A stretch of 64,000 nt of DNA, from the NCBI RefSeq assembly GCF_021431925.1, contig NZ_CP090371.1, forward strand, positions 1,426,001-1,490,000. Direction: 5' to 3'. This stretch comes from Halobaculum sp. CBA1158 (GTDB taxonomy: Archaea; Halobacteriota; Halobacteria; Halobacteriales; Haloferacaceae). The first letter of the stretch is position 1; each line of letters opens with the position of its first letter. The position numbers and the translations under genes were made by a program. Shown in pieces: positions 7,880-53,168 of this stretch. The notes beneath the pieces are model-generated. The model was not told where the DNA came from, did no database searches, and saw nothing but the letters and a program-made list of their open reading frames with translations.

Positions 7880-8758
7880 TTACTCGTCCAGATACTCGTC
7901 CACGAACAGCCCGACGCGCTCGCGGGTCTCCTCGGGCACGGCCTCGGCGGGCGTGTTGATCGTCCCCTCGAGCGAGCCGTGGGCCTCGCAGTCCATCTCG
8001 TCGGGGAAGGTGCGGACGGCTTCCTCGACGGTCTCTTTGATCGCCTCCTCGTTGGCGGCGGCGTTCTCCAGCACCTCCTCCAGCGTCACCTCGGCGTCCT
8101 GTTTCCACACGTCGTAGTCGGTGACCCCGGCGACCGTCGCGTACGCCATCTCGGCCTCGCGGGCGAGCTTCGCCTCCGGGATCGCGGTCATGCCCACGAG
8201 ATCCCAGCCCTGGCTCTTGTAGAACTCCGACTCGGCCTTCGTGGAGTACTGCGGTCCCTCGATGCAGACGTAGGTCCCCTCGTCGACGACGTCGGAGTCG
8301 GAGCCGAGGTCGCCGAGCGCGCGCTCGGCCGCGTCGGCGAGGTGGTCGGCCAGCTTCGGCGAGTACGGGCGCGTGAACGGCTGGTGGACGACGATCCCGT
8401 CGCCGAAGAAGGAGAGGTCTCGGTGTTTCGTCCGGTCGTAGATCTGGTCGGGGACCACGAGCGTCTGCGGCGACAGCTCCTCCTTCAGTGAGCCGACGGC
8501 GTTGCTGGCGATGACGTACTCGACGCCCGCCTGCTTCAGCGCGTGGATGTTCGCCTTGTACGGCAGGTCCGTGGGCGAGCGCTGGTGGTCGGGGCCGTGC
8601 CGGGGGAGGAACACGACCTCGCGGCCGGTGTCGCCGAACTCGCCGATCTCCAGGTCCGCGGAGGGCTCGCCGAAGGGAGTGGTGACTGACTCGGTGCGCG
8701 TGTTTCGCAGCGGGAGCGCCTCGTAGATCCCGCTGCCGCCGATGAAGCCGATGGTCAT
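7880..8758 (-). CDS. mtnP: S-methyl-5'-thioadenosine phosphorylase
   Basis: This 292-residue protein belongs to the MTAP/purine nucleoside phosphorylase family. It begins TIGFIGGSGIYEAL, has the phosphate loop FLPRHGPDHQRSPTDLPY, the nucleoside region ASNAVGSL, and the family block CIEGPQYSTKAESEFY followed by DLVGMTAIPEAKLAREAEM. It splits methylthioadenosine with phosphate into adenine and methylthioribose-1-phosphate, the first step of methionine salvage after polyamine or related reactions. It diverges from a deaminase of the same substrate family across a symmetric promoter. The ATG at 8758 has a CTTTAG box (minus strand) 29-34 bases upstream, supporting a leaderless start. Confidence 0.95.
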   Translation of the reverse strand: MTIGFIGGSGIYEALPLRNTRTESVTTPFGEPSADLEIGEFGDTGREVVFLPRHGPDHQRSPTDLPYKANIHALKQAGVEYVIASNAVGSLKEELSPQTLVVPDQIYDRTKHRDLSFFGDGIVVHQPFTRPYSPKLADHLADAAERALGDLGSDSDVVDEGTYVCIEGPQYSTKAESEFYKSQGWDLVGMTAIPEAKLAREAEMAYATVAGVTDYDVWKQDAEVTLEEVLENAAANEEAIKETVEEAVRTFPDEMDCEAHGSLEGTINTPAEAVPEETRERVGLFVDEYLDE

Positions 8759-8786
8759 TCGTGACTCACGGTTCCGGCGGTTCGGG

Positions 8787-8792
8787 CTAAAG
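8787..8792 (-). promoter_or_regulatory. TATA-like box for mtnP
   Basis: Read on the minus strand this is CTTTAG, 29-34 bases before the mtnP ATG at 8758. The equivalent box for the divergent gene (CTTTGT, 8852-8857) lies exactly the same distance from its own start. Confidence 0.45.
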
Positions 8793-8795
8793 CGA

Positions 8796-8848
8796 TGTGG
8801 ATCCGATCGGGAGAGGGATCACCTCGCCGATCGGAACGCGGATCCACA
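8796..8848. promoter_or_regulatory. Inverted repeat (candidate operator) between mtnP and the deaminase gene
   Basis: Arm TGTGGATCCG at 8796-8805 is repeated as its exact reverse complement at 8839-8848. The dyad centre is about 8822, which is also the midpoint between the two divergent ATG codons (8758 and 8886). Each arm sits just upstream of one TATA-like box. Two CCGATCGG octamers (8803-8810 and 8827-8834) lie inside. The geometry suggests one regulator controlling both genes, which is an inference. Confidence 0.5.
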
Positions 8849-8851
8849 CGT

Positions 8852-8857
8852 CTTTGT
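8852..8857 (+). promoter_or_regulatory. TATA-like box for the deaminase gene
   Basis: CTTTGT lies 29-34 bases before the ATG at 8886. It mirrors the box on the mtnP side. Confidence 0.4.
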
Positions 8858-8885
8858 ACGACGACGAGGGAGAGAACTCGGACCC

Positions 8886-10193
8886 ATGCTACTCGCCGGA
8901 ACCGTCGTCGCCGACGCCGAGACGGTCATCGAGAACGGCGCGGTCGTCGTCGACGGCGACCGGATCGTCGCCGTCGGCGACGAGGCCGGTCTCCGCGAGC
9001 GCTACCCCGACCACGCGCGCCGCGAGTTCGGGATCGTCGCCCCCGGCACCGTCGGCGCGCACGTCCACTCCGTGCAGTCGCTCGGCCGGGGGATCGCCGA
9101 CGACGCCGCGCTGCTCGACTGGCTGAACGACCACGTGCTGCCGATGGAGGCCGGGCTCGGTGCCGATGGAATGCGACTCGCGGCCGAACTCGGCTACCTG
9201 GAGTGCATCGAGTCGGGCGTCACCACCGTGATCGACCACCTGTCGGTCCACCACGCCGACCAGGCGCTGGCGGCGGCCGTCGACTCGGGCATCCGCGCCC
9301 GCGCCGGCAAGGTGCTGATGGACACGAACGCCCCCGACGGCCTCAGCCAGGAGACGGAGCGGGCGCTCGCGGAATCGGAGGCCCTGATCTGGAACTACCA
9401 CGGAGCCGACGACGGCCGGATCCGCTACGCCGTCACCCCGCGGTTCGCCGTCACCTGCACCGACGAGTGTCTGCGCGGCTGTCGCGACCTCGCCGACGCC
9501 TACGACGGCGTCCGGATCCACACCCACGCCTCCGAGAACACCGACGAGATCGGCGTCGTCGAGGAGCGTACCGGCAAGCGAAACGTCGCGTACCTCGACG
9601 AAGTGGGCCTCACCGGCGAGGACGTGATCCTCGCCCACTGCGTCCACACCGACGAGACGGAACGCGAGATCATCGCCGAAACCGGGACGCACGTGACGCA
9701 CTGCCCGTCCTCGAACATGAAGCTCGCATCCGGGATCGCGCCCGTCGAGGACTACCTCGCGCGCGGCGTCACCGTCGCCCTCGGCAACGACGGCCCCCCG
9801 TGCAACAACACGCTCGACCCCTTCACGGAACTGAAGCAAGCCAGTCTGCTCGCGAAGGTGGACGCGCGCGATCCCACGGCCGTCGACGCCGCCACGGCGT
9901 TCCGGATGGCGACCCGAAACGGTGCCGAGGCCGCCGGGTTCGAGGCGGTCGGCGCGCTCCGTGAGGAGTGGAAGGCCGACGTGATCGGCATCGACACGGA
10001 CCTGACGCGGGCGACGCCGATCCACGACCCCGTGGGCCACCTCGTGTTCGCGGCCCACGGCGACGACGTGGCGTTCACGATGGTCGACGGCGCGGTGCTG
10101 TACGACGAGGCCGACGGCGGGCACCGGACGCTCGACGCCGAACGGATCCGTCGCGAGGCGAACGCGTTCGACGTGCCCGGCGTCGACGCCTGA
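8886..10193 (+). CDS. mtaD: MTA/SAH/5'-deoxyadenosine deaminase-type amidohydrolase
   Basis: This 435-residue protein is a metal-dependent amidohydrolase. The first metal motif is GAHVHS following PGTV, the next is IHTHASEN with its His, then LAHCVHTDETE, the substrate segment CPSSNMKLASGIAPV, and the last metal Asp in LGNDGPPCNNTLD. These match deaminases of methylthioadenosine, S-adenosylhomocysteine and 5'-deoxyadenosine, which convert the adenine base to hypoxanthine. Being divergent from mtnP supports a role in clearing S-adenosylmethionine by-products. The exact preferred substrate cannot be told from sequence; guanine deaminase or another TrzA/AtzA-type hydrolase is a less likely alternative. 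The start follows a TATA-like box with leaderless spacing. Confidence 0.85.
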   Translation: MLLAGTVVADAETVIENGAVVVDGDRIVAVGDEAGLRERYPDHARREFGIVAPGTVGAHVHSVQSLGRGIADDAALLDWLNDHVLPMEAGLGADGMRLAAELGYLECIESGVTTVIDHLSVHHADQALAAAVDSGIRARAGKVLMDTNAPDGLSQETERALAESEALIWNYHGADDGRIRYAVTPRFAVTCTDECLRGCRDLADAYDGVRIHTHASENTDEIGVVEERTGKRNVAYLDEVGLTGEDVILAHCVHTDETEREIIAETGTHVTHCPSSNMKLASGIAPVEDYLARGVTVALGNDGPPCNNTLDPFTELKQASLLAKVDARDPTAVDAATAFRMATRNGAEAAGFEAVGALREEWKADVIGIDTDLTRATPIHDPVGHLVFAAHGDDVAFTMVDGAVLYDEADGGHRTLDAERIRREANAFDVPGVDA

Positions 10194-52426: not shown

Positions 52427-52993
52427 TCAGTCGTCGCCGAACTCGTCGACGACGACGACCTCGCCGTCCTCGACGGTGACGTTAATCAGCGTCTTCACCG
52501 AGTGGTCGGTGTCGTCGAGCTTGTTGGGTCCGGCCTTCTTGATCACGGCGACCACGTCGACCACGTCCGCCCCGATGTGGGTGAGCGCGTCGAGGATCCC
52601 CTTCATCGTGCCGCCCGTCGAGAGCACGTCGTCGAGCACGAGCACCTTGTCGCCCTCGAACACGTCGTTGATGTACATCTCCCCCTCGGAGTAGCCCGTC
52701 TCCTGCTGGAGCGCGACCTCGCCGTCGAGGCCGTACTCGCGCTTTCGGATGACGACCAGCGGGATGTCGGTCATCAGCGAGAGGGCGGTGGAGATGTGGA
52801 TCCCCATCGCGGCGGGCGTGACGATCTTGTCCACGTCCTCGATCTGCGCCTTCCGGATTATCCGGATGACGATCTCCCGGAGGAGCTCCGGCTCCAGCAT
52901 CGGAACCCCGTCGCTGATGGGATGAACGAAGTACTGGTACTCCCCCTTCTCGATGATCGGCGCGTCCAGCAGGGACTGACGCAGACGGTCCAT
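52427..52993 (-). CDS. hpt: Hypoxanthine/guanine phosphoribosyltransferase (archaeal Hpt)
   Basis: This 188-residue PRTase matches the archaeal Hpt family closely: [58 protein letters not shown] and the PRPP loop [17 protein letters not shown], with [20 protein letters not shown] at the end. It salvages hypoxanthine or guanine with PRPP in the cytoplasm. The ATG at 52993 gives the conserved start; further in-frame sequence upstream is Arg-rich and not coding-like. It follows the antiporter operon on the same strand after a gap of 175 bases. Confidence 0.94.
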
Positions 52994-53168
52994 GTCGCTG
53001 CGACGGCGAGGACCCCGTAAAGCCTGACGGATCCCCCGTGCGTTCCGAGGCGGCGTCGGGACCGCGCGGGCGAGCCGGCGGGAGCCGCCGTCGCCGCGGC
53101 GACGTGACGACGAGCCGGTGCCGACGCGTCGGCACCGCGCCTGCACCACGCCGTCACCGAGTCCCCGT

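Follow-up and report, generated by a model that had tools for sequence, protein, structure and literature searches.

An inverted repeat between the divergent mtnP and dadD genes of Halobaculum probably represents two copies of one promoter-proximal element

The perfect inverted repeat that lies between the divergent genes mtnP and dadD in Halobaculum sp. CBA1158 probably consists of two independent copies of a single promoter-proximal element, each including a putative regulator site and each serving one of the two promoters; we assign this reading a probability of about 0.55. What looked like a striking palindrome thereby becomes a more modest, testable claim, namely that a compact promoter element is common to purine-nucleoside salvage genes in one haloarchaeal genus.

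Results

The mtnP-dadD spacer

The window, a continuous stretch of 64,000 nt, contains mtnP and dadD on opposite strands, with their start codons at 8758 (minus strand) and 8886 (plus strand) separated by a spacer of 127 nt (Table 1). An earlier, sequence-only reading of this DNA had reported a perfect 10-base inverted repeat in the spacer and two boxes, CTTTAG and CTTTGT, at mirror positions 29-34 nt from each ATG; the repeat proved exact in both sequence and coordinates, and the boxes lie where they had been placed. The arm sequence TGTGGATCCG occurs a third time in the window, within the dadD gene.

The same reading had called the mtnP product a methylthioadenosine (MTA) phosphorylase, and this assignment holds, in that the protein scores above the curated cut-off of TIGR01694 and its TDYD stretch aligns with the archaeal MTA phosphorylase structures 1v4n and 1wta. 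The best-scoring family of the neighbouring deaminase, again above the cut-off, is 5'-deoxyadenosine deaminase (NF005557). By family score, the dadD product is therefore a predicted 5'-deoxyadenosine deaminase, which may also accept MTA or S-adenosylhomocysteine (SAH); SAH is a further substrate of the archaeal DadD from Methanocaldococcus (PMC10978960). The earlier idea that the two enzymes represent competing fates of MTA thus keeps its footing on the MtnP side but less so on the side of the deaminase, and a choice between phosphorolysis and deamination of MTA is possible.

Table 1. Positions of the genes, repeat arms and promoter elements in the window
Feature	Position	Strand	Sequence or support
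mtnP, S-methyl-5'-thioadenosine phosphorylase, 292 aa	7880-8758	-	TIGR01694, 286.5 bits (cut-off 274.85)
mtnP TATA-like box, CTTTAG	8792-8787	-	TTTA invariant in 11 genomes
Arm 1, candidate mtnP promoter-proximal element	8796-8805	-	TGTGGATCCG; reads CGGATCCACA toward mtnP
GATCC of the mtnP-side arm	8803-8799	-	within arm 1
Arm 2, candidate dadD promoter-proximal element	8839-8848	+	CGGATCCACA, complement of arm 1
GATCC of the dadD-side arm	8841-8845	+	within arm 2
dadD TATA-like box, CTTTGT	8852-8857	+	CTTTGT invariant in 11 genomes
dadD-like 5'-deoxyadenosine/MTA/SAH deaminase, 435 aa	8886-10193	+	NF005557, 644.2 bits (cut-off 522)
hpt, hypoxanthine/guanine phosphoribosyltransferase	52427-52993	-	NF040646 (HPT_Archaea), 249 bits (cut-off 200)
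Single element copy before hpt	53018-53033 (G000:C1:1479018-1479033)	-	GATCCGTCAGGCTTTA; scan match

Conservation of the two boxes within the genus

In the 11 Halobaculum genomes that we compared, mtnP and dadD are always divergent. The spacer measures 117-167 nt in seven of them and 660-1315 nt in the other four, and these long spacers (L034, L035, L040 and L041) hold a Polyketide_cyc2-type gene, a gene for a PEMT-type membrane protein, or both. A poorly supported gene tree would be consistent with the compact layout having arisen through the loss of these intervening genes.

All 11 mtnP promoters have the form GATCC-(RYR etc.)-TTTA with a gap of 6-7 nt; once this difference of 1 nt is allowed for, the GATCC is invariant, and the bases between GATCC and TTTA vary. 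Ten of the 11 dadD promoters carry GATCC and the remaining one ATATCC, in every case 6 nt before CTTTG, and the dadD element is conserved at 1.8 bits per column, compared with 0.5 just upstream. The distance between the two boxes, in contrast, is 27, 30, 34, 37, 67, 78, 571, 689 or 1227 nt and follows no constant helical phase. Because each copy stays at a fixed distance from the TATA-like box of its promoter and the distance between the copies is variable, we concluded that the arms belong to their own promoters and not to each other. The alignment of the spacer in relatives, which the sequence-only reading had suggested as a check, therefore has a divided outcome: the GATCC-type boxes are kept throughout the 11 genomes, but in most relatives the arms are imperfect as a repeat.

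Other promoters with the element

The pattern GATCCRY-N4-CTTTD (where D is A, G or T) occurs at 36 sites in the 11 genomes of the genus, and the ten other gap lengths from 0 to 10 give a mean of 7.5 sites each. These gap lengths served as the control in place of the reversed pattern, which contains CTAG, a sequence that is rare in haloarchaea. Four orthologous promoters account for 30 of the 36 sites, namely those of dadD (10), mtnP (6), hpt (8) and ilvA (6), and the remaining six correspond approximately to the background rate. Glycerol kinase genes hold three of these six, of which one was read completely and two were recognized by having the same flanking sequence, and a fourth site lies in another coding region; a GATCCACTCGACTTTG match common to three genomes was rejected because it falls inside the glycerol kinase gene.

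Both hpt and ilvA carry the element as a single copy. The exact form GATCCRY-N4-CTTT is present in eight of the 11 hpt promoters that were read, and in the other three it is shifted or altered. The ilvA gene encodes a threonine ammonia-lyase, identified by a family score above the cut-off, and its element, GATCCACGCAACTTTT, ends approximately 32 nt before the ATG (L233 1501-1549; G000:C1:25628); the exact form is found in six genomes of the genus, three of these loci having been read and the other three assigned by near-identical 16-mers.

According to the sequence-only reading, the motif should be sought before other genes linked to S-adenosylmethionine (SAM). Among the loci that were readable with a clear start, neither the ahcY promoters (three genomes) nor the metK promoters (four genomes) have a GATCC box adjoining the TATA-like box. 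These readable loci argue against a SAM-cycle regulon, and the other genes found with the element are hpt and ilvA. A near-perfect copy of the element is also present at a purine nucleoside ABC transporter (Bmp/PnrA-like) in one genome, G006, and was taken as background, since the relatives are without the element there and their promoter has a different conserved box, CGAAACGCGCCGTTTAT. This promoter-like box precedes the ATPase gene of the transporter cluster (L242-L252) and is strongly conserved across the genus.

Outside the genus, the box was found in one of 77 mtnP promoters and in none of 19 dadD promoters of other haloarchaea. The single case is the mtnP promoter of an uncultured member of the Halobacteria (L123, approximately 150-195), which reads CGATCCACACAGTTTAGCC and has no dadD adjoining. 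In many mtnP promoters of other genera the corresponding position is occupied by CGAACC or CGATTC, so it is possible that the box descended from an ordinary BRE-like stretch. Two copies of mtnP per genome were observed in archaeon A07HR60 (L128 and L139, with differing sequences) and in Halorussus halobius (L132 and L135, with identical upstream sequence).

Discussion

What might the element be? We considered that its two halves may differ in nature. In a background promoter sample comprising 304 kb of the same genome, for which gene calling was rough, CCACA is over-represented 4-5 nt upstream of TTTA or TTTT, A is in excess 4-5 nt before TTT, and CGAA is weakly in excess 8-9 nt before TTT boxes. 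From the enrichment of CCACA, the inner half of each arm looks like a general TFB-recognition region. The outer GATCC half is not general and is nearly confined to four promoters. Because the element is nearly confined to so few promoters, with both mtnP and dadD among them, a shared regulatory input is plausible.

The arrangement that we propose, read in order, would comprise the GATCC box, a CACA-type BRE-like stretch, the CTTTR TATA-like box and, after approximately 30 nt, a near-leaderless start codon. The CCACA next to the TATA-like box would be situated where TFB contacts the DNA, and the GATCC box most likely binds a putative regulator that would act on TFB/TBP from beside the BRE, at each promoter separately, either activating or repressing. 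We infer the TATA and BRE roles and the regulator itself, together with its ligand and the direction in which it would act. As in a promoter-proximal element of the UAS type, the distance to the own TATA-like box is fixed and the sequence recurs as a unit before hpt and ilvA.

A precedent exists in Halobacterium, where UASA and UASD, the sites of GvpE, adjoin the BREs of the divergent gvpA and gvpD promoters, and where a close distance between UAS and BRE is essential (PMC4390858). There, as here, divergent haloarchaeal promoters each have their own site beside the BRE, in opposite orientations; because the layout matches this precedent, a regulator site beside the BRE, separate at each promoter, is the interpretation that we favour. 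The GvpE sites, however, are 20 nt long, consist of two 8-nt halves and overlap centrally, whereas the element described here has a single box of approximately 5-8 nt, the copies of which may be more than 1 kb apart. The haloarchaeal TrmB sites, located upstream of or overlapping the BRE at metabolic genes (PMC10817205), are similar in their position relative to the BRE and in the metabolic nature of the genes, but the motif of TrmB is partly palindromic, spans 19 bp and recurs hundreds of times in the genome, and the present element is short, rare and, in most relatives, non-palindromic.

The single-copy sites before hpt and ilvA further suggest a likely common control of a small set of genes in which the salvage of purine nucleosides and bases is over-represented. 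We tentatively propose, from these four genes, a small Halobaculum regulon in which one factor that reads GATCC beside the BRE would jointly control mtnP, dadD, hpt and ilvA, possibly in response to purines. If true, this previously undescribed regulon would join the breakdown of MTA, 5'-deoxyadenosine and SAH, the salvage of hypoxanthine and guanine, and the deamination of threonine. Several observations count against a regulator: the box is all but absent outside the genus, ilvA does not belong to the purine genes, the hpt box is lost or changed in three of the 11 genomes, and a CGAW at about the same place within the genus could be part of an extended BRE. A literature search for haloarchaeal regulators of purine salvage yielded no relevant reports.

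The main rival of the regulator site is an extended TFB-recognition element, in which the whole arm would be recognized by the same TFB/TBP pair, perhaps a paralogue, with a preference for CGATCCACA-N4-TTTR and with no dedicated regulator. The enrichment of CCACA and the weaker excess of CGAA before TTT boxes agree with it, as do the CGAACC and CGATTC stretches in the mtnP promoters of other genera and the published haloarchaeal BRE consensus, CGAAA (PMC4983044). The promoters studied here resemble the haloarchaeal core promoter (BRE CGAAA, TATA element TTWT and leaderless start) in having a box approximately 30 nt before the ATG and a BRE-like stretch upstream of it; the core promoter elements, however, are general, unlike the GATCC box. 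A general GATCC at this spacing would be expected at dozens of promoters, but it rises above background at only four, and in the mtnP promoters the conservation of GATCC exceeds that of the putative BRE. We judge the extended recognition element to be possible but the less likely of the two.

The model put forward in the sequence-only reading, in which a single dimeric regulator or a shared operator on the dyad balances the two genes, fares considerably worse. In its favour, the 10-nt arms are perfect here and centred on the midpoint of the start codons, and both arms are conserved. However, the dyad centre, though correctly located, adds no independent evidence: the TATA-like boxes of this genome are found for the most part 27-35 nt ahead of the start codon (in the rough promoter sample), and because both boxes are at this usual distance, two promoters facing apart centre on the midpoint automatically. 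The symmetry is a by-product of mirrored promoters, and the spacer offers a clean example of how back-to-back, near-leaderless promoters create an apparent dyad, a trap for the reading of archaeal motifs. Moreover, the arms follow their own CTTT boxes at varying separation and without constant helical phase, one or two genes stand between them in four genomes, they are imperfect in most relatives, and the element is single at hpt and ilvA. The dyad operator is thus very improbable and largely refuted, and could be rescued only by a DNA-looping protein that tolerates separations of 27-1227 nt.

The inverted repeat taken alone is weak evidence, because in 3000 rounds of dinucleotide shuffling of the 127-nt spacer a perfect repeat of this kind, with arms of 10 nt or more, arose in 2.0% of cases, and 41 (4%) of the 999 tiles of 127 nt taken from the window contain one; a repeat whose centre falls no more than 2 nt from the midpoint arose in 0.07% of the shuffles. 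Such frequencies would allow two unrelated upstream sequences to share ten bases by chance, but this explanation is scarcely credible and is refuted by conservation, the box having been kept in 11 of 11 mtnP and 10 of 11 dadD promoters amid diverged surroundings.

The spacer and its margins contain further repeated or conserved stretches. A perfect 12-nt inverted repeat, which the sequence-only reading did not mention, is formed by ACGGTTCCGGCG (8768-8779) in the mtnP leader and CGCCGGAACCGT (8894-8905) within the opening codons of dadD. The mtnP leader (8759-8786, minus strand) has, downstream of its TATA-like box, a stretch, CGAACCGCC(A/G/T)GAACCGT, that is conserved in most of the genus and contains two GAACCG units approximately 10 nt apart. 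In the dadD leader (8866-8876, plus strand), a GGGAGAAC-like stretch located 10-20 nt before the ATG is conserved in most genomes of the genus.
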